The notes under the pieces are model-generated. The model saw only the letters and a list, made by a program, of their open reading frames with translations. It was not told the origin of the DNA and made no database searches. Below, piece after piece: positions 1 to 25,705 of a DNA stretch of 36,873 nt. The first letter of the stretch is position 1, and each line of letters starts with the position of its first letter. Source of the stretch: Candidatus Scatosoma pullicola (lineage in GTDB: Bacteria; Bacillota; Clostridia; Christensenellales; Borkfalkiaceae); contig DVGN01000095.1 in assembly GCA_018712725.1 (NCBI GenBank), positions 1 to 36,873 of the forward strand. Reading direction: 5' to 3'. Made by a program: the position numbers and the translations under genes.

Positions 1-29
1 AACCGTTCCGGCAACGCTTGTCTGTCCAC
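1..29 (-). CDS. 5' end of a leftward gene that runs off the window (GTG start; MDRQALPER...)
   Basis: Minus strand reads AGGGAGGGGTTTC-GTG with the frame open to the window edge, downstream of a consensus promoter. Only 9 codons are visible. Confidence 0.4.
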
Positions 30-71
30 GAAACCCCTCCCTTTCGGCGGCGCTCCGTCCGCCGTATGTTT

Positions 72-110
72 ATTATATACCATTATATACCATCCGATCG
101 CCGTTGTCAA
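72..110 (-). promoter_or_regulatory. Sigma70-type promoter for the leftward gene (TTGACA-N17-TATAAT, with a second TATAAT 10 bp further on)
   Basis: Minus strand: TTGACA (105-110), 17-nt spacer, TATAAT (82-87); another TATAAT at 72-77 within a 10-bp direct repeat. Confidence 0.75.
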
Positions 111-146
111 GCACCTGCAAAAGGCGTTTGCAAACGCCCGTTTATC

Positions 147-178
147 AAAACAGCCCGGCGGAATTTCCGCCGGGCTGT
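147..178 (-). terminator. Rho-independent terminator of the rhamnose operon
   Basis: 13-bp perfect inverted repeat acagcccggcgga-att-tccgccgggctgt (150-178), followed on the minus strand by TTTT. Confidence 0.8.
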
Positions 179-195
179 CCCGAAAGGGAAGAAAA

Positions 196-1341
196 TTACA
201 TGAGAGAACGATAGAGGGCCTTGATGTCCTCCAGCGTGGGATCTTTGGGGTTGCCGGGACGGCAGGCGTCGTCCATGGCGGACTGCGCCAAAAAGTCCAC
301 GTCTTCGTCTTTGACGATGGCTTTGAGATCCTGCGGGATGCCGACGTCCTTGGAGAGCTGACGGACGGCGTCCACGGCGGCTTTGCGGTACTCCGCCTGG
401 GTCATCTTTTCGGTGCCTTCGACGCCCATCGCCTTGGCGATGTCGCGGTACTTCTCGCCCGTCGCTTCGGCGTTGTATTCCATGACGGTGGGCAGCAGGA
501 TGGCGTTGGCGACGCCGTGCGGGGTGTCGTACACGGCTCCGAGCGCGTGCGCCATCGAATGGACGATGCCCAGACCGACGTTGGAGAAGCCCATGCCCGC
601 GATATACTGTCCGAGCGCCATGCCTTCCCTGCCCTCTTTGGTGTTCGCCACCGCGCCGCGCAGGGACTTGGCGATGATCTCGATCGCCTTCAGGTGGAAC
701 ATATCCGTCATCTCCCAGGCGCCCTTGGTGATATAGCCTTCGATCGCGTGGGTGAGCGCGTCCATGCCCGTGGCGGCGGTGAGCCCCTTGGGCATCGTGG
801 ACATCATTTCGGGATCGACGACCGCGACGACGGGGATGTCGTGAACGTCCACGCAGACGAACTTGCGCTTTTTCTGGACATCGGTGATGACGTAGTTGAT
901 GGTGACTTCCGCCGCCGTCCCCGCCGTGGTGGGCACCGCGATGATGGGAACGGAAGGTTTCTTGGTGGGCGCCACCCCTTCGAGAGAGCGCACGTCCTCA
1001 AATTCGGGGTTGGCGATGATGATGCCGATCGCCTTGGCGGTGTCCATCGACGAGCCGCCGCCGATCGCCACGAGACAGTCGGCGCCGCTTTGCCTGAACG
1101 CCGCCACGCCCGTCTGCACGTTCTCGATGGTGGGATTGGGCTTGATTTCCGAATACAGCGTATAGGGAATGCCCGCGCCGTCGAGAATGTCGAGCACCTT
1201 CTTGGTGACGCCGAACTTCACGAGGTCGGGATCGGAGCAGACGAACGCCTTTTTCAGTCCCCTGCCCCTGATCTCGCCGGGGATCTCCCGGATGCAGCCC
1301 GCTCCGTGGTAACTGGTTTCGTTGAGTACGATTCTTGCCAT
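196..1341 (-). CDS. fucO: Lactaldehyde reductase / iron-dependent alcohol dehydrogenase (FucO-like)
   Basis: 381 aa; GGGSSMDTAKAIG motif, Fe-ADH-type histidines (HAIEGY, HSMAHALGAVYDTPHG); last gene of the rha operon. Confidence 0.9.
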   Translation of the reverse strand: MARIVLNETSYHGAGCIREIPGEIRGRGLKKAFVCSDPDLVKFGVTKKVLDILDGAGIPYTLYSEIKPNPTIENVQTGVAAFRQSGADCLVAIGGGSSMDTAKAIGIIIANPEFEDVRSLEGVAPTKKPSVPIIAVPTTAGTAAEVTINYVITDVQKKRKFVCVDVHDIPVVAVVDPEMMSTMPKGLTAATGMDALTHAIEGYITKGAWEMTDMFHLKAIEIIAKSLRGAVANTKEGREGMALGQYIAGMGFSNVGLGIVHSMAHALGAVYDTPHGVANAILLPTVMEYNAEATGEKYRDIAKAMGVEGTEKMTQAEYRKAAVDAVRQLSKDVGIPQDLKAIVKDEDVDFLAQSAMDDACRPGNPKDPTLEDIKALYRSLM

Positions 1342-1433
1342 TGTTTTTATCTCCTTTTTATTTATTTTATCCGATTTTTTCCGATTTTTATCCGGCAGCC
1401 GCGCCTTTTCCCCTTCCGGAAAAAATTCCGCCG

Positions 1434-1751
1434 TCAGGGGAGATAAAATACTTCGCAGAGCCGGGGCTGAGCGCCCGTCTCCTCATCCCTGCCCATATCG
1501 AGGACGTCCGCCATATATTCGTTCCACCTTTCTACGACGGGGCTTTCCGCCTGCATTTCGGCGGCGTACGCCGCGCCCTTTTCGCACTCGTAATAGCCGA
1601 AAACCTCGTCGCCTGAAATCCATATGGAATAATTGCAGATGCCCGCCCCTTTCAGGACGTCTTTCATCTCCTGCCAGATCTCGTCGTGGCGGCGGATATA
1701 CTCCGCCCGTTTTCCGGGGCGGATCGCCGCCTTCCAGGCATACCGTTCCAT
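1434..1751 (-). CDS. rhaM: L-rhamnose mutarotase
   Basis: MERYAWKAAIRPGKRAEYIRRHDEIWQEM...NYSIWISGDEVFGYYE is RhaM-like. Start placed at 1751, inside the longer ORF 1434..1853. Confidence 0.9.
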   Translation of the reverse strand: MERYAWKAAIRPGKRAEYIRRHDEIWQEMKDVLKGAGICNYSIWISGDEVFGYYECEKGAAYAAEMQAESPVVERWNEYMADVLDMGRDEETGAQPRLCEVFYLP

Positions 1752-1767
1752 CTGCCGCGCCCCGCCT

Positions 1768-2622
1768 TTACCGCAGAACTCCTTCGAGCGGGGTGACGTC
1801 GAACCGTTTCGCAAGCCCCCGAAGGGTCTCGTCGGGGATGACGTTGACGGCATGCCCCAGCGCCAGCATATAGATCTGCGCCGTCTTTTCCACCGTCTCG
1901 ATCAGGCCGAACGCTTCGTCCATGTCCCTGCCCGCGCCGTAAATGCCGTGATTGGTCCAGACGACCAGGCGGAATTTTTTCATCTTCTCCGCCGTCGCTT
2001 CGCCGATCTCGTTGGTGCCGCACACCATGCAGGGCAGCATGCCGACGCCGTCGGGGAACACGACGATCGCCTCGGTGTTCGACTGCCAGAGCCTGTGCGT
2101 AAATTCCTTTTCGTCCACGGGGCAGACGGTGTTCATCGCGATCGTGTACGTCGGATGCGAGTGCATGACGATGCGGTTTTGGGGATCGACGGACAGGCGG
2201 GAAATATGGCTCATGAGGTGGGCGGGCAACTCGGAGGTGAATCTGCCGCCGTCCTTATACCCCCACAAAAGTTCCGCCGTGGTGCCGTCTTTGGCGATGC
2301 GGATGATGCCGAGATTGGTTTCGGGGTCAAATTCCACGTTCTTGAAATATTTGCCCGTGCCCGTCACGATGAAGATCTTCCCGATGAGCGGAGCCGCGTC
2401 GAATCCGGTGGGGATGGTGCGGATGACCTCGTTGAGGTCGAGATATTCCCCCACTTCCTTTTCGTCCAGAAGACAGCTGATGTTGCCGCCGTTGCGCTCG
2501 TCCCAGCCGAGACGATACATGTTGGCGGTCGTGCGGCACATCTCCCGCACGAAAGGCGCGTCGAAAATGTTCTTGCGGGCGAGCTTGCCCGCCGTCTTTT
2601 TCAGATCGTCCATAAATCCCAT
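1768..2622 (-). CDS. rhaD: Rhamnulose-1-phosphate aldolase
   Basis: 284 aa class II aldolase; GWDERNGGNIS, HSHPTYTIA and WTNHGIYGAG motifs; operon context. Confidence 0.92.
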   Translation of the reverse strand: MGFMDDLKKTAGKLARKNIFDAPFVREMCRTTANMYRLGWDERNGGNISCLLDEKEVGEYLDLNEVIRTIPTGFDAAPLIGKIFIVTGTGKYFKNVEFDPETNLGIIRIAKDGTTAELLWGYKDGGRFTSELPAHLMSHISRLSVDPQNRIVMHSHPTYTIAMNTVCPVDEKEFTHRLWQSNTEAIVVFPDGVGMLPCMVCGTNEIGEATAEKMKKFRLVVWTNHGIYGAGRDMDEAFGLIETVEKTAQIYMLALGHAVNVIPDETLRGLAKRFDVTPLEGVLR

Positions 2623-2678
2623 AATGGTACACTCCTTTTTTCGTTTTTTCTCCGTGTATCTTCTAAGCCGCCGGGCAG

Positions 2679-3923
2679 TCAGGCGCGCCCGGAAAGCACT
2701 TCCCTTTCATAGCGTTCGGCTTCGCCGTACCACTCGTCCGAAAGCCCCTGCTTTGCGAGATATTCGTTCCAGACATCCCCCAAGGGCATGGTCTTGAACA
2801 GCTCGTTCAGGTACATGAGCTTGCCGAAATTCGCCTTATCCTGCAAAGCTTTCATCTCCGCGTTGGGCAGGAGCAGGGCGTAGAGCAGCGCCTTCTGCAT
2901 CGACCGCACCCCCGTCACCCAGGCGCCGATGCGGTTGATGGAGGCGTCGAAATAGTCCAGCCCGATGATGACCTTGTCCGTTGCGTCGTTGCGCACGATC
3001 TCCTTGGCGATCTCTTTGAGTTCGTCGTCCAGGATGACCACGTGGTCGCTGTCCCAGCGCACGGGGCGGGAGACGTGCAGCGCCACCTTGTCGTAAAAGG
3101 CGAGAAGGGCGGGGATTTTATCGGAGACGACCTCCGTCGGATGATAGTGCCCCGTGTCCAGAAGGCAGCAGATGCCCGCCTTGGCGGCGTAATTCTGATA
3201 GAATTCGTTGCTGCCCACCGTATAGCTTTCCAGGCCGATGCCGAACACCTTGCTCTCGACGCCGACGATCACCCATTTTTTGTCGTACCCTTCGAGAATT
3301 TTGTCGAGGGAATCTTTCAGGCGCAGGCGGGGCGAAAGTCTGTCCGCGGGGATGTCCTTGTACCCGTCGGGGATCCAGATATTGACGAAACAGGGGCTGC
3401 CCATCGCCCTGCCCATCTCCGCCGCGATTTTCAGGCAGGCTCTGCCGTGATTGATCCAGAACGCGCGCGTCTCTTCGTCGGGGGAGGACAGGGAAAGCCC
3501 GTCCTTCATCCTGGGATGGGCGAAGAAAGTCGGGTTGAAGTCGATGCCCGCAAGCCCGAGTTCCTTGGCAAACGCCACCCAGGGCTCGAAATACTTATAT
3601 GTATATGCGTCCCTGTCCACCTTGCCCTTGTCCGCGCCGAGAACGGCGTAACTCGCGTGCAGGTTCAGCCGCTTCTTGCCCGGCATCAGGGAAAACGCCT
3701 CTCTGATGTCCGCTTTGAGCTGTTCGAAGCCCACCGCTTTGCCGGGATAATTGCCCGTCGTCTGAATGCCGCCGTCGAGGGAATCGCTGCCGTCGAAACC
3801 GATGACGTCGTCCCCCTGCCAGCAATGCACGCTGACGGGGATCTCTTTGAGTTTCGCGATCGCCGCGTCCGTATCGATGCCGTATGCGGCATACATCTTT
3901 TTCGCTTCTTCGTACCTGGACAT
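2679..3923 (-). CDS. rhaA: L-rhamnose isomerase
   Basis: MSRYEEAKKMYAAYGIDTDAAI...SVHCWQGDDV...LNLHASY; 414 aa. The ORF-track start at 4817 is an extension through rhaB in another frame. Confidence 0.95.
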   Translation of the reverse strand: MSRYEEAKKMYAAYGIDTDAAIAKLKEIPVSVHCWQGDDVIGFDGSDSLDGGIQTTGNYPGKAVGFEQLKADIREAFSLMPGKKRLNLHASYAVLGADKGKVDRDAYTYKYFEPWVAFAKELGLAGIDFNPTFFAHPRMKDGLSLSSPDEETRAFWINHGRACLKIAAEMGRAMGSPCFVNIWIPDGYKDIPADRLSPRLRLKDSLDKILEGYDKKWVIVGVESKVFGIGLESYTVGSNEFYQNYAAKAGICCLLDTGHYHPTEVVSDKIPALLAFYDKVALHVSRPVRWDSDHVVILDDELKEIAKEIVRNDATDKVIIGLDYFDASINRIGAWVTGVRSMQKALLYALLLPNAEMKALQDKANFGKLMYLNELFKTMPLGDVWNEYLAKQGLSDEWYGEAERYEREVLSGRA

Positions 3924-4003
3924 GCCTTGAATCTCCTTTTTTCCGTTTGGTTTTTTGTCCGTTTTTTTATCTTTCCGCCGGCGCCCGTCCGCGCCGGAAA
4001 AAG

Positions 4004-5386
4004 TCAGAGTTCCCGGATGTCGAAGGAATTCCGGATGATCTCCCTGCCTTCGGCGACCGAGCATATCTCGCCCGCGCCCGCCATCTGCATCAGTATGTTG
4101 CCGAGCGCCGTCCCCTCCGCGGGGCCGGCGACGATCTTTTTGCCCGTGTATTTCGCCGTCAGCTCGTTGAGAAATTCGTTTTTGCTGCCGCCGCCGATGA
4201 TGTTGAGGGTGTCGTACCTCTCCCCCGTCAGCGCTTCCAGCGCGGACAGGCTTTCGGCATAACTCTTGGCGAGGCTGTTGAAAATGCAGTACGCCCGCTC
4301 GCCGACGGAAAGCCGCCTGCCCACCGCTTTGTCGATCTCGTCCGTCATGCTCTCGGGGGCGAGAAATCTCTGGTCGTTGACGTCCACGGCGTCGGCGATC
4401 CCGTTTTGCCGCGCCATCTCCGCGAGTTCGGCAAAGCCGTATTTGTCGCCGAGTTCGTGCCGCACCTGCTGGATCATCCACAGCCCCATGATGTTCTTTT
4501 GCAGGCGGAAATTGCCGTCCACGCTCCCTTCGTTGGAATAGTCGAGCAGGCGCGCCTTTTCCGAAGTGTCCGCGCTCCCCCTCTCCACGCCGAGCAGCGA
4601 CCAGGTGCCGCTGGAAATATACGGCGTCCTGCCGCGCAGGGGCGCCGCGAGCACCGCGCTCGCCGTGTCGTGCGTCGCGGGCAGGACGACCTTCGATCTG
4701 TACCCGACCGCAGAAGCTACTTCCTCCGAAAACGCCCCCGTCTCCGTGCCCGGCTGCGACAGTTCCCCGAACAGCGATCTGTCGTATCCGAGCGCGTCCA
4801 GAATGTCTTCGTCCCATACATGGGTGCGGGCATTGACCATTCCCGTCGTCGTCGCGTCCGTGTATTCCCGCCTCTTTTTGCCCGTTAAGCGGAAGTGGAA
4901 ATAATCGGGGAGCATGAGGAAGCTCTTCGCCCCCCGCATCCGACCGCTCTGCACGTCGTCGAAGAGCTGATAGACGGTGTTGAAAGGCTGGTGCTGGATA
5001 CCCGTTCTGGAATACAGCTCCGCATAGGACAGCCGCTCGTGTACGGCGGGAATGGCGTCCTTCGTCCTGCCGTCCCGATAGCAGTACACCCCGCCGATGG
5101 GCAGATCGTCCTTATCCAGAAGGACGTAATCCACCCCCCAGGTGTCCACGCCGACGGAAAGGGGGATTTTTCCCGCTTCTCCCGCCTTTTTCAGACCCGC
5201 CAGGATCTCGCCGAACAGCCGGTCGGCGTTCCATACCAGATGCCTGCCGGAGGCGTCCGTCCGCGTTTCCGGACCGTTGGAAAAGCGGTAAATTTCCTCC
5301 GCGATCAGCCTGCCCCCTTCGAGATGACCCAGAATGTGCCGCCCCGAAGACGCCCCGATGTCGATCGCCAGATAATAATTTTTCAT
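4004..5386 (-). CDS. rhaB: Rhamnulokinase (FGGY family)
   Basis: MKNYYLAIDIGASSGRHILG... FGGY kinase; AGGAGGGCGAAGC-ATG ribosome binding site supports the start at 5386. Confidence 0.93.
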   Translation of the reverse strand: MKNYYLAIDIGASSGRHILGHLEGGRLIAEEIYRFSNGPETRTDASGRHLVWNADRLFGEILAGLKKAGEAGKIPLSVGVDTWGVDYVLLDKDDLPIGGVYCYRDGRTKDAIPAVHERLSYAELYSRTGIQHQPFNTVYQLFDDVQSGRMRGAKSFLMLPDYFHFRLTGKKRREYTDATTTGMVNARTHVWDEDILDALGYDRSLFGELSQPGTETGAFSEEVASAVGYRSKVVLPATHDTASAVLAAPLRGRTPYISSGTWSLLGVERGSADTSEKARLLDYSNEGSVDGNFRLQKNIMGLWMIQQVRHELGDKYGFAELAEMARQNGIADAVDVNDQRFLAPESMTDEIDKAVGRRLSVGERAYCIFNSLAKSYAESLSALEALTGERYDTLNIIGGGSKNEFLNELTAKYTGKKIVAGPAEGTALGNILMQMAGAGEICSVAEGREIIRNSFDIREL

Positions 5387-5534: not shown

Positions 5535-6278
5535 ATGCTCACGAGCGAACGGCAGAACAAAATTCTGGAATATCTGAAAGAGCGCAAGACGGCGTTTGTG
5601 CGGGATCTCGCCGCGGCGCTGTACGTCAGCGAGGCGACGGTGCGGCGGGATCTGAACGAAATGCAGAAACTCGGGCTGATCGAACGCAGCCACGGCGGGG
5701 CGATTCTGCCCGAAAACGCCGAAGAGGTGTCCATTTTCGTGCGCATGAACAAGAACGCCAGGGAAAAGGAACGCGCCGCCACCAACGCGCTGAAAAGGCT
5801 CGCGGGCATCCCCTTCCGCAGCCTTTTCGTGGACAGTTCCTCCACAGCGCTCGCCCTCGCCGCCCGCCTGGACCTCTCGCACAGGACGGTGGTGACCAAC
5901 AATTTGCAGACCGCCATGCAGCTGGCGCAGAAGGCGGGCGTCAACCTCATCCTGCTGGGGGGAAGCGTGCAGGCGAACACCAATTCCGCGACGGGGAGCT
6001 GGACGGTGCGCCAACTCGCCGATTTTTCCTTCGACCTCATGCTCGCCTCCTGCGCCGCCGTCGTCGGCGGAGAGGCGTTCGAGCGCTCGCTCGACCAGAA
6101 GGAGATCAAGCGGGCGGCGTTCGAGCGGAGCGCGAAGCGGGTGCTCGTCGTCGATTCGGGGAAATTTTCCGCGTCGGGCACCTATCGTTTCCAATCGCTG
6201 GACGCCTTCGACTGCGTGGCGACGGACGCCCCGCCCCCCGCCGAGCTCATCGGAAAAAACATCCCCTTCGCCTATTGA
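5535..6278 (+). CDS. DeoR-family transcriptional regulator, likely regulator of rhamnose utilisation
   Basis: MLTSERQNKILEYLKERKTAFVRDLAAALYVSEATVRRDLNEMQKLGLIERSHGGAIL DeoR HTH plus sugar-phosphate sensor domain; divergent from rhaB. Confidence 0.88.
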   Translation: MLTSERQNKILEYLKERKTAFVRDLAAALYVSEATVRRDLNEMQKLGLIERSHGGAILPENAEEVSIFVRMNKNAREKERAATNALKRLAGIPFRSLFVDSSSTALALAARLDLSHRTVVTNNLQTAMQLAQKAGVNLILLGGSVQANTNSATGSWTVRQLADFSFDLMLASCAAVVGGEAFERSLDQKEIKRAAFERSAKRVLVVDSGKFSASGTYRFQSLDAFDCVATDAPPPAELIGKNIPFAY

Positions 6279-6290
6279 AGGGGATGTTTT
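6256..6290 (+). terminator. Rho-independent terminator of the DeoR gene
   Basis: aaaacatccccttc-gcctatt-gaaggggatgtttt inverted repeat, overlapping the stop codon. Confidence 0.75.
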
Positions 6291-6308
6291 CAATTAAATA
6301 TACCCAAA

Positions 6309-6611
6309 TTAAAGTTCATTCTTCTTTTTCAAAATTTCTCTTGCCATGCGCTTTGTCTCGCCAGCCATTAATTTCAAGTTGTTTGTATTCAATCTTTTAT
6401 CTTCCATGTCCAAAACTTGAGTAAGCCAAAAAATATGATGTTCCTTTGTTGTAAAATAAATATTTCTTCTCATTGGATACGTCTTTACATTTTTCCAAGC
6501 CATATGTTGCGGATCGACCTCACAATAGTAAGCATAAGAAACAAACCAAGTCGCTCCCATACGCGACAATGCATCTCCGCCAACAAAATTAAAAAAATGC
6601 GCTTTTGCCAT
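6309..6611 (-). CDS. Orphan hypothetical protein, third gene of the AT-rich cassette
   Basis: MAKAHFFNFVGGDALSRMGATWFVSYAYYCEVDPQHMAWKN...; GGAGG upstream of the ATG at 6611 (a TTG at 6629 is an alternative). AT-rich. Confidence 0.6.
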   Translation of the reverse strand: MAKAHFFNFVGGDALSRMGATWFVSYAYYCEVDPQHMAWKNVKTYPMRRNIYFTTKEHHIFWLTQVLDMEDKRLNTNNLKLMAGETKRMAREILKKKNEL

Positions 6612-6619
6612 GAATAAAT

Positions 6620-6901
6620 TTACCTCCAATATTTAATAAATGACGAATAAAAATTATTTACATCCCTATAAACAGTTATCAATAAAACAGTTTCAATATG
6701 TTTATAGGAAAAATTGCAAAATACATAAATAGTTTGATTGAAGAATATACAATATACATTTTGCTCCCGCATACAGTGTATCTCTACGCCCCTATTATAT
6801 GCATTTCTTACCTCGTGGTAAGCTCTTCGGCGATTTTTGATTTTTAGCCTTTCTTTCAATCGCTTCAAAGCATGCGCCGACAAAAGATACTTGGTATTCA
6901 T
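6620..6901 (-). CDS. Small DUF4258-like protein (RelE/BrnT-type toxin-like)
   Basis: MNTKYLLSAHALKRLKERLKI...YCIFFNQTIYVFCNFSYKHIETVLLITVYR; the S.HA..R...R start and ITVY ending resemble DUF4258. Start overlaps the previous stop (TAATG). Confidence 0.6.
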   Translation of the reverse strand: MNTKYLLSAHALKRLKERLKIKNRRRAYHEVRNAYNRGVEIHCMREQNVYCIFFNQTIYVFCNFSYKHIETVLLITVYRDVNNFYSSFIKYWR

Positions 6902-8109
6902 TAAAATTCTCCTTTTAATGTTTTTTCGTAATTTTCGATTAGAATTTGATGAACTATTTTTTTCGGCAAGCAAATCTTAAAATTAAATTTGAAACATTCC
7001 AAAGTATAATCGCCTATGGGTTGATCGCCTTCAAAATCCATGAATCTCGTAAACTGTATGCCTCGTTTCGCCTTCATAGTAATTTCATCCGAATACTTTT
7101 TTATATCATCCGCTATAGGCTCAATAAGCCCCTTTTCAAGTAATGAAGAAAATGTGGCTTTATAATAATCCTTTTTAATAAAAAAGTTTTTATAAAGATA
7201 ATCTCGTGCTTTATTGGTTCCACCGAAGAAGTCAAGTTCATTTTCGATTTCTCCTGTCGAAACCTCCTCAAAATAAATCACATTATTTATATCATATCTC
7301 CCTGTTTCAGCCCAAACGGATTCCATTTTTTCATAATAAATGCCTGTACCATCATAACAAATACTTTTGTTTCCATAACCCTCTTGGACCATCACACTCA
7401 ACATCAAAGGGAATACATCTTCCGCCTTTTTTCGTCTGTCCTCAGTTAAATTTTTACCGAGTAACGACTTTCCAAAACTCTTTAACACATCCGCCCTGAA
7501 CGCATCTTCTGTAAGTTGTTTATATAAAGATACGATTTCTTCTCTTTTATATAATTTTTCAGGTGCATCAAAAAATCTTTTCTTGTCTCCATTTTCAAAC
7601 TTATACGGAAGATATACGGACGAATAGATAAACTCGCCGTCTTGAAAAGGGTTTTCTATTGTACCAACATTTTTTTTCGCGTCCTCATCTTCTTGATCCG
7701 ATATTGTATATAACGAATCGGAAAAAGCAATACTTTCACTCTTGCCGACAATCCTCGCTTCTATAAGATCGATTAAAACATTTTTCTCTTCTTCCGTTAA
7801 ATTCCTCAAAGGCGATTCCGTTTCGACTGCTTCCGTAAATAGTTCGTCTAACGTACAACCGATAACTCTTGAAATTGCAACAAGTGTAGGTATATTCGGA
7901 AACGCTTCTTTATTAAGCCATTTGTAAACATTTTTAGTCGATTTAGTCGACTCAGTCTCGTGTCCTGCGTATCCCAATTTTTCCATAACCTCTTTTGCAA
8001 ATTTTGCCTGATTGTATCTGCACTCTTCTTTCCGTTTGTCTATATATCTTTGGATTCGAGCGCTAAGACATTCTTTGCAAATATCTGATAAAGACCTATT
8101 AGTTTTCAT
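6901..8109 (-). CDS. XRE-family HTH protein with a large uncharacterised C-terminal domain
   Basis: 402 aa; N-terminal HTH (YNQAKFAKEVMEKLGY...TKNVYKWLNKEAFPNIPTLVAISRVIGCTLDELF) followed by about 280 aa with no recognised family. Confidence 0.75.
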   Translation of the reverse strand: MKTNRSLSDICKECLSARIQRYIDKRKEECRYNQAKFAKEVMEKLGYAGHETESTKSTKNVYKWLNKEAFPNIPTLVAISRVIGCTLDELFTEAVETESPLRNLTEEEKNVLIDLIEARIVGKSESIAFSDSLYTISDQEDEDAKKNVGTIENPFQDGEFIYSSVYLPYKFENGDKKRFFDAPEKLYKREEIVSLYKQLTEDAFRADVLKSFGKSLLGKNLTEDRRKKAEDVFPLMLSVMVQEGYGNKSICYDGTGIYYEKMESVWAETGRYDINNVIYFEEVSTGEIENELDFFGGTNKARDYLYKNFFIKKDYYKATFSSLLEKGLIEPIADDIKKYSDEITMKAKRGIQFTRFMDFEGDQPIGDYTLECFKFNFKICLPKKIVHQILIENYEKTLKGEF

Positions 8110-8141
8110 TTTTTTTCTCCAAGTTTAGTTAACTTGCACAT

Positions 8142-8170
8142 ATACTATCACTTTTAAGTGGAAATGTAAA
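8142..8170 (-). promoter_or_regulatory. Promoter of the XRE cassette (TTTACA-N17-TAGTAT) with an inverted repeat in the spacer
   Basis: Minus strand -35 at 8165-8170, -10 at 8142-8147; CACTT-AA-AAGTG (8149-8160) lies between them. Confidence 0.65.
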
Positions 8171-8255
8171 GCTTTTTTCTTGTCATAATATTAAGTTTTT
8201 TCTCTTTATAAGGGAAATAAAGTTTATTATATTTATATTACGTTTATCTTCAATA

Positions 8256-8292
8256 AAACAAAGCGGAGCCTTTTAAGCTCCGCTTTGTTTTA
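8256..8292. terminator. Bidirectional Rho-independent terminator between the esterase gene and the cassette
   Basis: aaaacaaagcggagc-cttttaa-gctccgctttgtttt perfect inverted repeat with A and T runs. Confidence 0.8.
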
Positions 8293-8346
8293 CACATTTT
8301 GCTTACTATTCTTAAAGTCCGTTTACTTGCCAACCAAACTATTAAA

Positions 8347-9180
8347 TCAGAACTTTTCCACGCAATAGGAGCGGAAGAAATCAGCGCAGTCGCTTGTCCA
8401 TTGCGCGTTCTTGCGCATAAACGGCGCGCAGGCGGGATTTATCTCCCAATCGCAGGTGGACGCGCCGTGATCCCCCTTCGGATAAACGTGCAGTTCGTAG
8501 GGGATCTTGTTTCTTTGCAGCGAAAGGGCAAAAAGCAGAGTGTTTTCGGGCGGCACGCAGCTGTCCTCCACCGTCGTCCACAAAAACGCGGGCGGCGTGT
8601 CCTCCGTGACCCGGTCTTCGAGCGAAAGCTCCTTTTCGAGCTCCGCCTTCGCCTCCTCCGTGTATCCGTCGAGCAGATTTTTATAGGAATCCGCATGGCA
8701 CGTCTTATGGGAAATGACGGGATAGGCGAGTCCCACCGCCCTGGGACGGCAGTCGAGATCCATTCCCGTCTTCTGCTTCACGCACTGCCATTCGACGGCG
8801 AGATCGGCGGTCAGATGCCCGCCCGCGGAAAAGCCCACGACGAAGATCTCGTCCGGATTGACGTGCATCTTCTCCGCGTTTTTCTTCACGTAATCGACCG
8901 CTGCGGCGACCTCGGCGAGCTGTTCGGGATAACGTACCCCGTCGGGGTTGCAGAGATAGGTGAGAACGCATACCTGGTACCCCTTTGCGAAGAAACGGCT
9001 GGCGACGGGCACGCCTTCTCTCTTGCTGACCATCCAGTACCCGCCGCCGGGAACGACGACGACCATGGGACGCCGCCACTCGGGCGCGGGCTGGTCATAG
9101 GGGGCGTCGGCGAGCAGAAATTCCAGTTCGCCCCCTTCCACGTCATAATTGTCTTTGAGTTGCACTTTATATGTATTCAT
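8347..9180 (-). CDS. Alpha/beta hydrolase (acetyl-esterase-like)
   Basis: MNTYKVQLKDNYDVEGG...VVVPGGGYWMVSKREG...VGFSAGGH...GDHGAS; 277 aa; start at 9180. Confidence 0.85.
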   Translation of the reverse strand: MNTYKVQLKDNYDVEGGELEFLLADAPYDQPAPEWRRPMVVVVPGGGYWMVSKREGVPVASRFFAKGYQVCVLTYLCNPDGVRYPEQLAEVAAAVDYVKKNAEKMHVNPDEIFVVGFSAGGHLTADLAVEWQCVKQKTGMDLDCRPRAVGLAYPVISHKTCHADSYKNLLDGYTEEAKAELEKELSLEDRVTEDTPPAFLWTTVEDSCVPPENTLLFALSLQRNKIPYELHVYPKGDHGASTCDWEINPACAPFMRKNAQWTSDCADFFRSYCVEKF

Positions 9181-17478: not shown

Positions 17479-20400
17479 TTACGCGAGGGAGATGCGGTCG
17501 GAGACGGAGCGTACGAACAGCCCTTTCTCCTCTCCCATCGTCACGCAGTTGTTGACGTATACGGAGAACTGATCGGAGGGCTTGTTGATGCGGAAGAGGT
17601 TGCAGACGATGACCATGATTTCGTCCATGTACAGCGCCACCTTGTCTTCGAGCGCGGAACGGATGATCGCGACGATCTCGTAAGGGGTGAAATCCGTCTC
17701 GTTCCTGCGGAGGACGTCCCCCGTTTCCACGCGGTACTTGTCGAAGCCGATGCACTTGTCCGTCTTGCGGTAGTACGCCGTGCCGAAGATGCGCTCGTAC
17801 TTGAATCCGCAGAGGGCGACGAGCGCCTGCATGCGGGCGTCCGCCTTGGCGCCGTACTTCATGATGCCCAGCCCGGACAGGCAGCGCCGGACGAGAAAAT
17901 CGTAGGAGATCGGCTCTTCCGCCGCGACGATGGCTTTGAGGCGGGAGATGATCTCGGCGTCGTTGTCGCCGGAGGTGACAAAGGTGGCGTTTTCGAAGCG
18001 CTGTTCGAGCGCCGCCGCCTTATACGGCTTCTTGCTACGGTTTAAGCCGGTGCCTCCCCTCTTGTCCGCCCCCGTGAGCTTGTCGAGCAGGTCTTTGATC
18101 TTCTTGATCTCCCGCTTGGGATTGTTGTAATAGTTGACCGAATACACCCGCACGACGTTCCAGTTGTTGCGTTTGAGCGTCTGCATCTGCAGGACGAAGC
18201 GGTCCTTGACGGAAAAGTTGTTGGGCCCGTCGCACATGACGGCGAGGATAAACTTGTGCCGGTTTCTCGGATCGGTGACGGCGACGTCGATCTTGAAGTC
18301 GGAAACGCCGACGTCATAGCGGCAGTCGTAGCCGTAGGAGGCGAGTTCTTCGGCGATGTACTTGCCGATGCCCGGCCCCTTGCGGACGAGATTGCCCGAC
18401 GGGATGGCGAGCGTGGTGCGCCCCTTTTCGGCGAATTCGAGGAAGGCTTTGAGCCCCGCCACCCCCTTGGAACCCGTCTTGGACAGGTCGATCATCGCCC
18501 CCGTCATGGACGAGAAGATGACCATCTCTTCGCGCGCGCGGGACACGGCGACGTTGAGCCGCCGCCAGCCGCCCGCCTGGTTGAGGGGACCGAAGTTGAG
18601 GGACACCCTCCCCTGTTTGTCGGGACCGTAGCAGACGGAGAAGAGGATGACGTCCCGCTCGTCCCCCTGCACGTTTTCGAGATTCTTGACGAACAGCGGC
18701 TCTTCGCGGTCGTAGGCGGCGCCGTCCAGCCTCTTTTCGGCGATGACCGCCGTGAGTTTGCGCTCGATGTACTCCTTCTGCACGTTGCTGAACGTGACGA
18801 TGCCGATGCTGGATTTGCGCAGATTCGGGTCGGAGAGCCTGCGGACGACCTCCGCGACGAGCGCGTCCCCTTCCGCCTTGTTCCGCTTGGTGAAGCCGCG
18901 GTCGTAAACGCCGTCCTCCACCCGCACGAACCTGACCCGGCTGTCGGGCGCGTCCGGGGAGGGGAAGGTACACAGCTTGTTGCCGTAATACATGATGTTG
19001 GAGAAGGCGATGAGGCTCTCGTGCTTGCTCCGGTAATGCCAGATGAGGTGGCGCTGCGGGATGCCGAGCGCGAGGCAGTCGTCCAGAACGCTCTCCATGT
19101 CCTCGTTTTCGAGATTGTCTTCGTCCACGTAATTGGTGTTGAAGAATGCGGTGGGCGGCAGCTGTTTGGGGTCGCCGACGACGACGGCGCACTTGGCGCG
19201 CGCGAGAGACCCGATCGCCTCCGCCGTGGGCATCTGGGAGGCTTCGTCGAAGATGACCATGTCGAACATCCCGTTTTCCGGCTGCAGATACTGCGACACG
19301 GTGATCGGGCTCATCAGCATGCAGGGGGCGACGACTTTGAGGAGCTCGGGAATCTCTTCGAACAGCTTTCTCAGCCCCATGCCCCGCAGATTCGCCTTGG
19401 CGAGCCGCTGGAAGTTGACCACTTCCAGACTGAGCGCCCCTTCGGTGGAGGGGGTGGGCAGGCGGGAAATGAGCTTGGCGCGGATGCTCTCGCGGGAGAG
19501 ACGGGCAAATTCGTCCAGCGCCAGCCGCAAAGATTCCGTCTCCTCTTCGAGCAGCGTCGCCGAAAAGCGGGAAAGGACGGGATCGAGCGGGATATTCGTC
19601 TGCAAAAAGTTCTTGTAGATGTTCTTTTCGAAGCTGTCGACGATGTTTTCGCCGGTGATGGAGCCGTTTTCCAACGCGTCCGTCATGAAGGTAAGCCCCG
19701 CCCCGTCCAGCTTCTCCGCCGTCGCGCGGTACATACACCAGTTGGCGAGCAAGTCGATGTTGTCGATGAGCGCCCCCGCCTTGGCGGTATAGTATTCGAG
19801 GACGTCCTCCGCGGGCACCTTTTTGCGGTCGGCGTTGGTGACGGAGAGGAAACTTTCCTCCGCCGCGTAAAAACTCGCCACCGAGCGCAGCAGCCCTTTG
19901 AGGACGGGCTTGGTATAGCCGTTCGCGGCGCGGATGCACATGCTGTTGAAGCTGTCGGCGTTGTAGTCCATGAACAGGCGGGAACAGATGTCGTGCAGTT
20001 CGTACAACCCGGACAAAAACTGCTTTCTGCCGTCGAAGTAGTCCACCTTCCCGAACGCGCCCGTGAAATTTCGGGAGAGCTTGGTGTTGGTGCGGATGAG
20101 TTCCATCGCCTCATAGATCTCGGTGACCGTCTGCAAATGCTTGACGACGTCCTCCTCCTTCATGGGCGAAATTGCGACTTTGGCGAGCTTTCTGGCGACG
20201 GAGAGCGCCGTCTTGTCCTTCGCGTACGCCGTGCCGCCCGCGTCCAGCCAGCTGCCGAGTTCCTTGTACTCCTTCCCGATGTCCACGAGCTTTTTGAAGC
20301 TCTTGAAATAGGCGTCCAGACAGGCGTCCAGCCGGCGGTTGGCGTTGAAGAAGGCATAGAATTCCTCTTCGTTTTCGCGGAAGTATTTATCCAGCGTGCC

Positions 20401-23136
20401 GCCGTCCAGAAGTTTTGCCGCCTGCGAGAGAAGTTCCAGCTTCTTGCGCGTGAGCGTGCTGATCCGCTGGCGGTACAGTTCCAGAAAGAGCGCCACGTAG
20501 TTTTTCAGATGCTTGATCTCCGCGATGACCACTTCGGACGAGCAGTAAATCGCGTCCCGGAGATCGCGCGAATATTCGGTGAGATTGACGTTGGCAAAGG
20601 GGGAATTGTACACCCCGCCGCACTCTTTGGCGGCAGCCGCCGCCTGCACCATCATGTTCTCGTAAGCCTCTATCTTCTCCTTGGTCAGGCTGTCGTAGAA
20701 GGTGCTTTCGATGTTCATGATGTCGGGCGCGTTCTTGTTTTTCTGACAGATGAGCAGCGCCTCGTACACCGACACCCCCAGCCGGCGCTTTTTGTGCAGC
20801 GCCGCCAGCGGCTCGGCGAGATCTTTTTTCAGCTGGGAAATGCTGCCCGATTTCTCGGACAGGCTCACGCTCTCCTGCGCCCCCGCGAGCGCGAGCGTGG
20901 AAGTCAGCTTTTGCAGCACGTCCGCCTTATTCGTCTTGTTGGAGTGCAGTTCCAGACAGAACTCCCCCAGCCCCAGCGAATCCAGGCGCTTTTTGACGAC
21001 GGACAGCGCCGCCTGCTTCTCCGCGACGAACAGCACCCGCTTCCCGTCGTTTAAGGCGTTGGCGATCATATTGGTGATCGTCTGGCTCTTGCCCGTTCCG
21101 GGAGGACCGTGCAAAACGAAGGTCTTGCCCGTCTGCGAAAGCGCCACCGCCTCCCACTGCGAAGAGTCGGCGGGCAGGGGCATGAGGGTCTGGGTGGGCG
21201 GGCACTCGTCCTCCCTGAACTCCACGTCCGCGGTGTCCCTGATCTCGCAGCGGTTGTGCAGGAGGGAGGAGATGAGCTCGTTTTTGGAAAAGACGTCCAT
21301 GTTGTGGCGGAGATCCTGCCACATCTGATAGCGGGCGAAGGAGAAGGCGGCGATATATACGTCGTCGAACACCTTCCAGTCCTTCATGTTGACGACTTCC
21401 ATGCGCACCATGCCGAGAATTTCGGAAATTTTCAGCCCTTGCAGAGCGCCGTCCAGACCGCGGATGTCGATGTTGAATTCCTGCTTCAAAAATTCGAGCA
21501 GGGTGGAATTGACGGAGAAATCTTCGTCCCCCGCCGAAATCGCGTATCCCACGCCCCCTTTCGCCTTTTTGAGGGTGACCGGCTTTAAGACGAGAGGCGC
21601 ATAGTTGACCTTCCCGTCCTCCCGCGAATACCAGCGCAGAAAGCCGAGCGCGAGATAAAGGATCTTCGTGCCCGATTCTTCGTCCGCTTCCTTGCTCCGC
21701 TTGATGAGGCGGTTGATCGTCTCGTTGAGGACGACTTCCTCCGAAAAGGTGCGCAGAATGCCGTTGGAATTTTCCAGCGAGATCAGCTCCCGCATGGACT
21801 TCACTTCCTGCGCGGCGTCGAAAAAGATCTTGCGCCTGGCGATTTCGGTCACCGCCGCCGACGCGCCCGCAAGCCGCATCTCCTCCTTCCCTTCCAGGGC
21901 GGCAAGGGTGGCGTCCGGATCGGAAGAAAGGACGTGCTGCACCATCTTTTCGGGAGAGAAGTTGAGCAGGGTGTTCTTCAAGGACAGATCGAGAAGCCGC
22001 CGCTCCCACTGCTTGTCCTTGGTCTGCTTGCCGTCCAGGCTGAGTTTTTTCGCCTCCGAAAGCTGTTTGGGCGCGGCGTCGGGGGACATGTCCTCTTCCG
22101 AGAGGATCTCGTACCCTTTGAGGTTGCGCGCGCGCATGGGCAGAGGGCGGATGTGCGCGATCCGGCAGCGCCGGATGTCCACGTATTTGTCGTAAATGCC
22201 CCCCGCGTTCAGCCGTTGCAGGAAATGCGCCTCCGAAGTGGAATAGGCGCAGTTGCGGTCGGAGAACAGGTCGTTTATGTCGAAGCAGCTCAGATTGTTG
22301 ATGCCGTCCGCGATGTACTTGGAAAGCCGCTGCATGTCGTCGGCGACCGTGTCCATGAAACAGCTGTCGTACAGCCATACGCCGCAGGTGATCTCCCTTT
22401 CGCCCAACACCAGCACGGGATGCAGTCCTAAACTTTCCAGGCACGCGGCGAAGAGCAGGGAAAGTTCGAGCGGGGTCGCCTTGCGCTCGGCGAGCAGCTT
22501 GGTGCCGCCCCCCGCTTCCACGGGCGAAGCGATGTCCGCCTCTTCCTTTTCGAAGGCGTAGCGGCGGATGCAGGCATACAGCGCCGCCGCCGTCTGCCGC
22601 ACCGCGTTCTTGTCGCTCCCCTCATAGCCGTTTATCTCGCTCGGCACTCCCCACTTTTTCAGCTGCGCCGCGATCTCCGTTTTCAGGCGTTCGCAGTCGG
22701 CGAGCCGGGGGCGCACGAAGGCAGCCAGAAGTTCGGCGTTGCCCGAAGTGCCCTGCCAATAGTCGAAGGGCAGGGCGGTGAGCGTCAGTTTCTGGGACGC
22801 GTACAGCTTTTTCTCCTTGCGGAGCTCTATATAAACGTCCTCCTGCCGCACTTCTTCCAGCCCCACGAAATAGAGCGGGGACAGGATGTTGCCCGCGTCC
22901 ACTTCCACCGCGCTCTCGAACGGCACTTCCGCCACCGGAAGCACGCAGGAGGTCAGAAGACCGTGGTCGTTGGTAACGGTCAGGGTGAGGTCGGCAAGCG
23001 CCTCCGACCCGCCGTTTTCTATCCTTAAAGAAGTGAATATCGGCGTCTGCGTGAAGTAGTCGGCATAGGAAACCACGCCGAGCGCCTCCGCGACGAGGGT
23101 TATACTGTCTTCCGTTTTCAGCTTTTTCTGCGCCAT
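17479..23136 (-). CDS. DUF4011-type SF1 (Upf1-like) helicase with Vsr/DUF559-like domain and DUF3320-like C-terminus
   Basis: 1885 aa; VLHGPPGTGKSQTITNMIANAL (Walker A), MVIFDEASQMPTAEA (Walker B), VVGDPKQLPPTAFF, ENVQGDERDVILFSVCYGP, LNVAVSRAREEMVIFSS; C-terminal nuclease-like and DUF3320-like regions. Confidence 0.85.
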   Translation of the reverse strand: MAQKKLKTEDSITLVAEALGVVSYADYFTQTPIFTSLRIENGGSEALADLTLTVTNDHGLLTSCVLPVAEVPFESAVEVDAGNILSPLYFVGLEEVRQEDVYIELRKEKKLYASQKLTLTALPFDYWQGTSGNAELLAAFVRPRLADCERLKTEIAAQLKKWGVPSEINGYEGSDKNAVRQTAAALYACIRRYAFEKEEADIASPVEAGGGTKLLAERKATPLELSLLFAACLESLGLHPVLVLGEREITCGVWLYDSCFMDTVADDMQRLSKYIADGINNLSCFDINDLFSDRNCAYSTSEAHFLQRLNAGGIYDKYVDIRRCRIAHIRPLPMRARNLKGYEILSEEDMSPDAAPKQLSEAKKLSLDGKQTKDKQWERRLLDLSLKNTLLNFSPEKMVQHVLSSDPDATLAALEGKEEMRLAGASAAVTEIARRKIFFDAAQEVKSMRELISLENSNGILRTFSEEVVLNETINRLIKRSKEADEESGTKILYLALGFLRWYSREDGKVNYAPLVLKPVTLKKAKGGVGYAISAGDEDFSVNSTLLEFLKQEFNIDIRGLDGALQGLKISEILGMVRMEVVNMKDWKVFDDVYIAAFSFARYQMWQDLRHNMDVFSKNELISSLLHNRCEIRDTADVEFREDECPPTQTLMPLPADSSQWEAVALSQTGKTFVLHGPPGTGKSQTITNMIANALNDGKRVLFVAEKQAALSVVKKRLDSLGLGEFCLELHSNKTNKADVLQKLTSTLALAGAQESVSLSEKSGSISQLKKDLAEPLAALHKKRRLGVSVYEALLICQKNKNAPDIMNIESTFYDSLTKEKIEAYENMMVQAAAAAKECGGVYNSPFANVNLTEYSRDLRDAIYCSSEVVIAEIKHLKNYVALFLELYRQRISTLTRKKLELLSQAAKLLDGGTLDKYFRENEEEFYAFFNANRRLDACLDAYFKSFKKLVDIGKEYKELGSWLDAGGTAYAKDKTALSVARKLAKVAISPMKEEDVVKHLQTVTEIYEAMELIRTNTKLSRNFTGAFGKVDYFDGRKQFLSGLYELHDICSRLFMDYNADSFNSMCIRAANGYTKPVLKGLLRSVASFYAAEESFLSVTNADRKKVPAEDVLEYYTAKAGALIDNIDLLANWCMYRATAEKLDGAGLTFMTDALENGSITGENIVDSFEKNIYKNFLQTNIPLDPVLSRFSATLLEEETESLRLALDEFARLSRESIRAKLISRLPTPSTEGALSLEVVNFQRLAKANLRGMGLRKLFEEIPELLKVVAPCMLMSPITVSQYLQPENGMFDMVIFDEASQMPTAEAIGSLARAKCAVVVGDPKQLPPTAFFNTNYVDEDNLENEDMESVLDDCLALGIPQRHLIWHYRSKHESLIAFSNIMYYGNKLCTFPSPDAPDSRVRFVRVEDGVYDRGFTKRNKAEGDALVAEVVRRLSDPNLRKSSIGIVTFSNVQKEYIERKLTAVIAEKRLDGAAYDREEPLFVKNLENVQGDERDVILFSVCYGPDKQGRVSLNFGPLNQAGGWRRLNVAVSRAREEMVIFSSMTGAMIDLSKTGSKGVAGLKAFLEFAEKGRTTLAIPSGNLVRKGPGIGKYIAEELASYGYDCRYDVGVSDFKIDVAVTDPRNRHKFILAVMCDGPNNFSVKDRFVLQMQTLKRNNWNVVRVYSVNYYNNPKREIKKIKDLLDKLTGADKRGGTGLNRSKKPYKAAALEQRFENATFVTSGDNDAEIISRLKAIVAAEEPISYDFLVRRCLSGLGIMKYGAKADARMQALVALCGFKYERIFGTAYYRKTDKCIGFDKYRVETGDVLRRNETDFTPYEIVAIIRSALEDKVALYMDEIMVIVCNLFRINKPSDQFSVYVNNCVTMGEEKGLFVRSVSDRISLA
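23073..23101 (-). other. Helicase N-terminal coding region (part of 17479..23136), placed here only to mark that the promoter lies outside it
   Basis: Positional note. The promoter is the next entry. Confidence 0.05.
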
Positions 23137-23364: not shown

Positions 23365-23579
23365 TTATAACTCTCTTATGCAAAGAGCGGGCAGCAATGC
23401 GCCGCCCGCCCCGACTTCCTTTCTCCTCTTTCACGGCTCTCTTGTACAAAGAAAAGCAGCCGACATATGCCCCACCACCATGGCTCCCTTGTGCAAAGGG
23501 AGCTGTCAGCGCAAGCCGCACCCCAACCATGGCTCCCTTGTGCAAAGGGAGCTGTCAGCGCAGCTGACTGAGGGATTGT
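23365..23579 (+). repeat. Intergenic repeat array 1: degenerate units plus two full double-hairpin units
   Basis: Units begin near 23365, 23431, 23478 and 23527 (CCATGGCTCCCTTGTGCAAAGGGAGCTGTCAGCGCA...). The last, 53 bp, is identical to 32668-32720. Confidence 0.85.
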
Positions 23580-23614
23580 CCCGCACAAATTCCGACTCCG
23601 GGACAAGGCCCTCT

Positions 23615-23992
23615 TTACAGGGCATCTATGACCATCCAATCGATTCGCCCCACTTCAAACTCGACAAATTCGTTTTCCGCAATGTCTTTGGGAATATTGT
23701 TTTCAAGTTCTATCACAATTCCCCCGACCGCAACCAATCGATTTTTCAGGTCAAACAGCCTCCCCGTCAGTTTATAGCCATAATATCCGTCCGTTTTTTC
23801 CGCCGAATATTCATTTTTCAAGGCGCGCATGACGTTTTCCGACATAAATGCCGAAAGCGTAAAATCCTTTTCCTTATCCCCGGCGGAATACGGAAGGGCA
23901 TAGCATAAAATCTCATATTTCCCGTCCGAAACAAGGATGTCCGCCTCCTGCTCCCCGTCAAAATCGACAGACTTGATATACATTTTTGCCAT
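23615..23992 (-). CDS. Hypothetical protein (125 aa)
   Basis: MAKMYIKSVDFDGEQEADILVSDGKYEILCYALPYS...; coherent globular composition, no family recognised. Confidence 0.65.
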   Translation of the reverse strand: MAKMYIKSVDFDGEQEADILVSDGKYEILCYALPYSAGDKEKDFTLSAFMSENVMRALKNEYSAEKTDGYYGYKLTGRLFDLKNRLVAVGGIVIELENNIPKDIAENEFVEFEVGRIDWMVIDAL

Positions 23993-24078
23993 AATTTTTG
24001 CCTTTTTTATTATTTATCAGCGCCGCGGAACAGACAAAATTCATTCTGTTTTCTATAATTTTTCGCCGCCGAAAAAAA

Positions 24079-24384
24079 TCAAATATCCAGGATTTCGACA
24101 ATTTTTCCGTGCGCCGCTTTTTCCCGCGCTTCATACAGATCGAATTCCATTCCGATTTCCGCCTGCTCATCCGACAATTTCCTGCTTTTCAACCCGACAA
24201 AGGCGACGGACGTTTTTCCGCAAATTTCCCTGTTGAAAATTTCTGCGCTGAATACGGCGCCGCTTTCCGAAGGAGTTTTTTCATCCGCAAAAACAATTAT
24301 CGGTCGATAGGGCAGATCGGAAATAACGGGCTGTCCGCTCTTTATGTCCGCCGCCCACACGATTTCGGCTATAAATCCGGACAT
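24079..24384 (-). CDS. Small protein resembling EF-Tu domain-like hypothetical proteins (101 aa)
   Basis: MSGFIAEIVWAADIKSGQPVISDLPYRPIIVFADEK...; strong GGAGGGAGAAA ribosome binding site. Family assignment is tentative. Confidence 0.65.
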   Translation of the reverse strand: MSGFIAEIVWAADIKSGQPVISDLPYRPIIVFADEKTPSESGAVFSAEIFNREICGKTSVAFVGLKSRKLSDEQAEIGMEFDLYEAREKAAHGKIVEILDI

Positions 24385-24445
24385 TTTCTCCCTCCTTTCC
24401 GAAAAAATAATTTTTTCGGATTTTTCATTTTTCCCGCACTTTCCG

Positions 24446-25036
24446 TCATCTTAAAAATTCGTTTATCGTGGGATAAAAAAGCCGGTTTTTCCTGCGGACG
24501 GACGTTTTTTGAGGCGGAATGTCAAATGTATTGTGCGACAAAATATATCCGATGATCTGTTCGTCCGATTCCGCCTCACGGCATTCTTCCGTACCGTCGT
24601 AAGTAAATTTCAGCCCTTCCCCGTCCCGGCGGACATACGCGTTCAAAATTCCCGTTTTATTTTTATCGTACCGCCACGAAAAACGGATGGTTCGCGTCAG
24701 ATAAAAATCCTGCAAATCGCCGGGCTGCTAAAGGGGTATATTTTTACAGCATAAAAGAATTTTATTCTCTTCGGCGTGAAAATTTATATTTTTATTGAAA
24801 TTATCGAGACAATTTCTATATGCCTCCTCCCCCGTTTTTCCCGATCCGCTGATTTTGCAGATCTGCGCGCCGCAATTATCGTTTATCAGACTGACGTTGA
24901 CCGACGCATATTTTGTCTCCTTCCCCAATCGGCATAAATCCGAAATAAATTCCGTCAGCGTGACGATGATGATCAGCCCCTGTTTTGCGATGATTTTATG
25001 TTCGCATTCCCGCTCGATCGTTATCCTATCGGCCAT
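24446..25036 (-). pseudogene. Hypothetical ORF split by an in-frame TAG (102 codons + TAG + 93 sense codons)
   Basis: ORFs 24728..25036 and 24446..24715 share a frame and are separated by TAG (24728-24730) plus CAG CCC GGC GAT. The second has only a TTG start and no clear ribosome binding site. Confidence 0.5.
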
Positions 25037-25107
25037 ATCCCACCCGGAAAAATTTTTTACGGCTTCGCTTCTCCTTTTCCGTTTCCGAAACGTCGCTCCA
25101 TACCTTT

Positions 25108-25136
25108 ATTATATCCGCTGTCTCCCGCCCTGTCAA
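25108..25136 (-). promoter_or_regulatory. Consensus promoter (TTGACA-N17-TATAAT) upstream of the ORF at 25036
   Basis: Minus strand TTGACA at 25131-25136, TATAAT at 25108-25113, 17-nt spacer. Confidence 0.75.
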
Positions 25137-25370
25137 CAGAATCCGGCATATTTCTCCCGCCGGATACGCGGCGCCATTTCCCGCCCCTGCCGCCCGCCGC
25201 GGCGCGCGGCCCGGCGAACAAAAAACAGCCCTTATGGCGTTTTGCCAAAAGAACTGCCGAAAAAGAATATTTTTTGCATATTTTCAAATATCCGCCCGCC
25301 TCCGCCTGACTTTCGCCGGCAGCGCACCGGAACGCAGATTTTCCGAAAACGGTGCAAATTTGCCGAAAGT

Positions 25371-25705
25371 TTACTTTTCCTCTTCCCCGGCTTCCTTCTC
25401 CCGCAAAGCCTTTTCCTGTTTTCTCTGCGTGATACTGTCGTAATAAATGCCCGAAACGTCCGTTCCTCTTGTAGCAAAGAGGCAAGACGGAGGATCTTCC
25501 GGCAATATTCCGTGTCGTACGCCGTTTTATAAATATCCCCGATCGAATAGAGCCCGACCCCGTCCTGTTCGCCGAACGGGGTATATTCCTTCAAAAGGAG
25601 ATAGTCGTCGTCCCATTCCGACACTTCCCCCAAGCCGAAACCGTCGTCGTTTATATCCGTATAGACTTCCAGCAGCCGTCCCTTTTCAAAAACTTCCCTC
25701 TTCAT
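25371..25705 (-). pseudogene. Hypothetical gene with an apparent frameshift near 25460-25480
   Basis: MKREVFEKGRLLEVYTDINDDGFGLGEVSEWDDDYLLL...YDTEYCRKILRLASL in one frame; the -1 frame continues ...GIYYDSITQRKQEKALREKEAGEEEK-TAA, a more protein-like ending than the Arg-rich tail of ORF 25232..25705. Confidence 0.5.

Follow-up and report, generated by a model that had tools for sequence, protein, structure and literature searches.

Introduction

DUF4258 is listed among 13 families of BECR (RelE/ParE) toxins; the antitoxin gene normally comes first, and fusion of DUF4258 modules to HTH antitoxins of the MqsA type is possible (PMC11980606). The locus described here consists of three genes in a stretch of 36,873 nucleotides (the window), which makes up contig C67 of a draft genome ~2.0 Mb in size.

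The locus can be set beside several described systems: (i) gene 2 can be aligned along the full length of the domain that defines the DUF4258 family (PF14076) of the RelE/ParE (BECR) superfamily and follows an HTH gene, in the antitoxin-first order usual there (PMC11980606), but it scores below the Pfam cut-off and stands outside the conserved unit of the locus, and its antitoxin partner is only putative; (ii) the locus shares with XRE/HTH-led type II toxin-antitoxin operons a leading HTH gene, overlapping small genes, operator-like promoter palindromes and a mobile, AT-rich setting, whereas the regulator here is 402 aa long and ends in a large, novel domain, and the small partner, gene 3, has a new helical fold (as modelled) and mostly occurs without the regulator; (iii) the N-terminal HTH region of gene 1 resembles that of phage-type c2/C1 repressors (phrog_8, P22 c2), but its C-terminal domain is unrelated to them and phage genes are absent at the locus; (iv) like single-gene abortive-infection and integron-cassette defence genes, gene 3 is small, solitary, mobile and AT-rich and is once found beside AbiJ, although searches of PADLOC and the PDB relate it to no described defence protein in sequence or fold.

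The reading tentatively favoured here, to which we give somewhat less than an even chance, is that the locus is an acquired regulator-effector operon of the toxin-antitoxin or abortive-defence type, in which gene 1 would repress itself and control gene 3, and to which gene 2 would have been added.

Architecture and chromosomal setting of the locus

The three genes all lie on the minus strand within a segment of low GC content (Table 1). The best-fitting segment, 6273-8360, has 33.0% GC, compared with 59.3% for the remainder of the window; a 2-kb scan of the window reaches its minimum at start 6301 (33.2%), and the next lowest value outside is 46.6%. The sharp GC drop over three same-strand genes described in the first-pass annotation is therefore a discrete segment. 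The flanking alpha/beta hydrolase gene is found in 54 of 57 congeners. The congener G060 keeps the hydrolase and DeoR genes in synteny but has a gene for a polysaccharide deacetylase between them, so this part of the chromosome is a slot of variable content. Composition, patchy distribution and this variable slot together support the earlier proposal of horizontal acquisition.

Table 1. Features of the locus, in window coordinates
Feature	Position	Strand	Remark
DeoR-family regulator, flank	5535..6278	+	host backbone
Hairpin terminator	6256..6290	.	common to gene 3 (-) and convergent DeoR gene (+)
Gene 3, 100 aa, all-helical protein	6309..6611	-	ATG 6611 start, 8 nt after gene 2 stop
Gene 2, 93 aa, DUF4258-like (BECR/RelE-type fold family)	6620..6901	-	profile comparison
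Shine-Dalgarno GGAGG of gene 3	6623..6627	-	read in sequence, within final codons of gene 2
Gene 1, 402 aa	6901..8109	-	HTH + linker + unclassified C-terminal domain
Shine-Dalgarno AAAGGAG of gene 2	6909..6915	-	read in sequence, within final codons of gene 1
C-terminal domain of gene 1, unclassified	6916..7629	-	alpha/beta, about residues 161-398
HTH region of gene 1	7819..8010	-	XRE/Cro-type, about residues 34-97
Putative operator	8120..8160	-	palindrome-like; CACTTAAAAGTG (8149-8160), CAAGTTAACTAAACTTG (8120-8136)
Putative operon promoter	8142..8170	-	TTTACA-17-TAGTAT, TG before -10; consensus scan only
Hairpin terminator of upstream hydrolase gene	8254..8292	-	folding
Alpha/beta hydrolase (BD-FAE/Abhydrolase_3), flank	8347..9180	-	domain matches

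Strong hairpins do flank the genes, as had been noted, with folding energies of ~-22 kcal/mol on either strand at the gene 3 end (z -5.1/-5.4) and -27.4 kcal/mol at the gene 1 end (z -7.2). Their use as evidence of cassette ends does not stand, because the convergent DeoR gene has its stop codon within the first, and the second trails the hydrolase gene and is also present at the equivalent position in a syntenic relative (L100). As cassette boundaries both hairpins were rejected; they are probably ordinary terminators, the first serving both gene 3 and the DeoR gene and the second belonging to the hydrolase gene. Terminators were the only such features read in 6250-8350, where no attC-like site was seen, and no RNA families were found within the window.

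The gene junctions are as first annotated: gene 2 starts inside the stop of gene 1 (TAATG), and a gap of 8 nt precedes gene 3, each small gene having its ribosome-binding site within the final codons of the gene before it, so that translation signals read as coupled. The third gene had been given 106 codons from TTG 6629. This is probably not the true start, because GGAGG precedes ATG 6611 and homologues paired directly with gene 1 share the latter position.

Elsewhere in the window, a gene at 17479-23136 (-) encodes a 1885-aa helicase-nuclease (DUF4011, AAA_11/AAA_12, MTES_1575 REase) that matches the PADLOC phage-defence candidate PDC-S37 nearly end to end (E 5e-297). Immediately upstream of it is a second low-GC stretch (23500-25500, 44-49%) with small minus-strand ORFs of 125, 101, 102 and 157 aa, which have no Pfam or PADLOC matches.

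Gene 1, a putative self-repressing regulator

The N-terminal region of gene 1 is very likely a helix-turn-helix of the XRE/Cro-C1 type, although it falls below curated cut-offs. Pfam HTH_26 and HTH_3 match it weakly and below threshold (E 0.012 and 0.024, respectively), and the XRE assignment of the first-pass annotation finds further, modest backing in the PDB profile of 3omt (E 0.001), in phrog_8 of the PHROGs (E 1.7e-7, N-terminal part) and in a Foldseek comparison of the model, which returns P22 c2 repressor-like folds with probability 0.99 but E about 0.09 or more. A linker (residues 121-158) is missing in relatives. The C-terminal domain has no match in Pfam, NCBIfam, PHROGs or PADLOC; the structure model, based on an alignment of four sequences, has a mean pLDDT of 65 overall and low confidence in this domain. 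Among the loci fetched, the C-terminal profile matches only copies linked to gene 3. A search with the gene 1 alignment (A2) among members of the order beyond the same family gave matches to the HTH part only, and no relatives of gene 1 were found in viral contigs, plasmids or phages.

The -10 region of the putative promoter is conserved between the window operon and three homologous operons. One palindrome-like site, CACTTAAAAGTG, lies inside the promoter spacer and the other, CAAGTTAACTAAACTTG, immediately downstream of the -10, and similar sites occur at the equivalent place in homologues (TGTCATGACA in L002, TTGTAACGTTGCAA in L004). Since the four promoters share the -10 region and then palindrome-like sites, autorepression of gene 1 through these palindromes is suggested, as a hint from four sequences.

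Gene 1 and gene 3 form the conserved unit

Full-length gene 1 was found in four of the 201 genomes sampled from the same family (the window genome, G024, G065 and G173), its relatives being limited to three other genera. In all four, seen from the gene 1 side, a gene 3 homologue adjoins gene 1 downstream; gene 2 lies between them in the window, whereas in the other three the gap is a few to about 20 nt without gene 2. The pair is intact in four genera at 24-50% identity. Because the three relatives have gene 3 directly behind gene 1, the conserved unit consists of these two genes, gene 2 apparently having been added in this lineage.

The linkage does not hold in reverse. A fifth genome of the family (G015) has gene 3 and lacks gene 1, gene 3 elsewhere is mostly solitary, and in a tree of poor resolution the four copies linked to gene 1 are not grouped as a single clade. 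Profiles of the gene 1 HTH, the gene 1 C-terminal domain and DUF4258 found nothing further near gene 3 in the loci from other phyla. The conserved three-component module first proposed has thus given way to a kept pair: gene 2 has no homologue beside the other copies, and most gene 3 homologues are unlinked to gene 1, which speaks against a co-occurring trio.

Gene 3, a mobile family with a modelled helical fold

Gene 3, initially taken for an orphan, has the widest distribution of the three genes. A five-sequence alignment searched against 84,980 species genomes recovered 46 further loci of this family of ~100 aa in at least seven phyla. The hosts include Clostridia, Treponema, Eggerthellaceae, Bacteroidales, Akkermansia, Fibrobacter, Proteobacteria, Deferribacteraceae and one Bathyarchaeota fragment, and almost all come from guts, rumens or termites. 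The family is rare outside gut lineages, since 349 genomes taken across the phylum held no copy except the window's own. Five residues are invariant (W22, F23, S25, Y26 and M89; alignment A3) and five nearly so (H36, W39, R48, H59 and N77).

Searches of Pfam, NCBIfam, PHROGs, PADLOC and PDB sequences gave no family match. The AF2 model is all-helical and confident (pLDDT 91.1, pTM 0.83), and a fold search with it found no match, the best probabilities being 0.08 in the PDB and 0.13 among viral models. By this model, gene 3 is a novel all-helical protein family whose fold has no known match.

Several observations indicate that gene 3 moves. Its GC content is below that of its own locus in 42 of 44 loci, by a median of 8 points, and phyla are intermixed in its poorly resolved tree. 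In a Treponema sp. (L033 5171-8430 and L032), the gene 3 homologue is a cassette of an integron-type array. A 65-nt attC-like site comes after it, and related sites (CACATAAC...GTTATGTG) recur along the array; the length agrees with the 63-68 bp of published Treponema attC sites (PMC3607928). These sites apart, no conserved DNA was seen flanking gene 3. One copy is on a Vibrio casei plasmid, where no attC-like repeat and hence no integron setting was found. Another is in an IMG/VR phage contig (L072, IMGVR_UViG_3300050336_000135), adjoining AbiJ (AbiJ_NTD3 E 7e-51, Abi_C); the phages collection held none. In that contig, positions 1-5020 place a C5 DNA methyltransferase, AbiJ and the gene 3 homologue inside 5 kb, likely an accessory-gene region.

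Gene 3 mostly occurs on its own, after unrelated genes such as purL, prfB and dnaE. It is also found as a domain fused to Sel1 (L027), ankyrin (L043, L044) or MORN-like (L065) repeats, named by eye, or to coiled-coil; the repeat partners sit on either side of it. Some copies adjoin genes for BspA-like leucine-rich repeat proteins. The only recurring neighbours, counted with no correction for host background, are leucine-rich and ankyrin repeat proteins, of kinds that these hosts commonly encode, and there is no consistent defence partner.

Individual loci differ further. At L067 (5653-6264) the gene 3 domain occurs in tandem, as near-identical copies, after a coiled-coil N-terminus that is DUF4298-like, a match obtained on the similar L069 protein. 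In two rabbit-gut Clostridia, related proteins of 444-447 aa with no Pfam family adjoin gene 3 upstream (L031 1445-2776 and its equivalent in L059) and are a possible second fixed partner. In a Lachnospiraceae locus (L054 681-1319) the upstream neighbour is another XRE protein, of 213 aa, with a different C-terminal part.

These solitary copies, repeat fusions and BspA-like neighbours, with the integron-type array and the phage contig, are what would be expected if gene 3 were a single-gene mobile trait (defence, counter-defence or repeat-protein interaction) captured behind a regulator, with gene 1 only controlling its expression. We regard this as rather unlikely, though it fares best among the alternatives: the C-terminal domain of gene 1, about 240 aa, exceeds what a repressor needs and, among the loci fetched, is found only with gene 3.

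Gene 2, a remote DUF4258 relative

Against Pfam DUF4258, gene 2 spans the whole domain with E 0.51 and 11.1 bits, where the cut-off is 25. Compared by hhalign with a reference set of 26 true DUF4258 domains drawn from genomes, it aligns over columns 1-71 of the ~71-residue domain (probability 93.9, score 38); the best score in 60 shuffles was 13.6. This full-domain match supports the DUF4258-like assignment of gene 2, which appears to be a remote relative of the family. The alignment, together with the listing of DUF4258 among BECR toxin families, makes gene 2 plausibly a RelE-type toxin or a derivative of one. No credible relatives were found in the same family of bacteria, viral contigs, plasmids or phages. 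A match in G008 was rejected, being antisense within a priA-like gene. With no homologue detected by the DUF4258 profile beside any other copy of gene 1 or gene 3 in the gathered loci, gene 2 looks like a local addition: of the genomes seen, this one alone has it between genes 1 and 3.

Genes 1 and 2 have the order and overlap of a type II operon. In DUF4258 modules the antitoxin comes first, and fusion to an MqsA-type HTH can occur (PMC11980606), so that gene 1 as HTH antitoxin and gene 2 as toxin might form a type II pair, with gene 3 an older passenger. This is distinctly unlikely in our estimation, since the relatives of gene 1 lack gene 2 yet have gene 3, gene 1, with 402 aa, far exceeds the usual size of an antitoxin and does not resemble MqsA, and gene 2 is a remote family member under the Pfam cut-off.

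Regulator-effector model and significance

A remnant of a prophage or other element, consisting of a phage-type repressor and two small genes with no host function, would account for the repressor-like N-terminus of gene 1 (phrog_8, P22 c2 fold) and an AT-rich locus with no other element genes nearby, but is very improbable given a gene 1-gene 3 pair kept across four diverged genera, the lack of gene 1 and gene 2 relatives in the phage and viral collections searched, and the absence of an integrase or structural gene at the locus.

That the locus is a mobile regulator-effector operon is held here with moderate confidence, and any specific action of it with low confidence. We infer that the HTH protein of gene 1 would repress its own promoter and that its C-terminal domain would hold or sense gene 3. 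Gene 3, a small helical protein that spreads alone as a mobile gene, would be the effector or bind a target. The DUF4258 (RelE-type) gene 2 would have come in between the two more recently, in this genome, and would encode a further small protein, translated by coupling. A trigger, for example phage infection, would lift the control by gene 1 and release the effector or effectors.

The regulator-effector operon is favoured by the adjacency of genes 1 and 3, the restriction of the C-terminal domain to gene 3-linked copies, the promoter palindromes, the low GC and phylum-mixing tree of gene 3 and its mobile contexts, and by the position of the HTH gene before the DUF4258-like gene, which is the antitoxin-first order (PMC11980606). 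Counting against it are the solitary state of most gene 3 copies, the lack of a defence partner, the scattered placement of the linked copies and the negative PADLOC result (no match for the proteins of genes 1, 2 and 3 up to E 1). Gene 3, being usually solitary and lying also behind housekeeping genes, does not look like a toxin tied to one fixed antitoxin. Its wide spread, on plasmid, phage and integron, makes the operon a candidate phage-defence or toxin-type module. A more far-reaching version, which we consider unlikely, is that gene 3 founds a family of mobile small effectors of undescribed helical fold that cross animal-gut phyla on integrons, plasmids and phages and are fused to sensor-like ankyrin, Sel1 and MORN repeats; gene 1 would then be a dedicated sensor-repressor arming gene 3 against phages.

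The gene 3 family is well conserved and widely exchanged among gut bacteria, and has neither an entry in Pfam, NCBIfam, PHROGs or PADLOC nor a match to a solved fold. Its pairing with a dedicated HTH protein offers a way in to probing its role, and at this locus a DUF4258 toxin-like gene can be seen joining what appears to be a pre-existing two-gene module.
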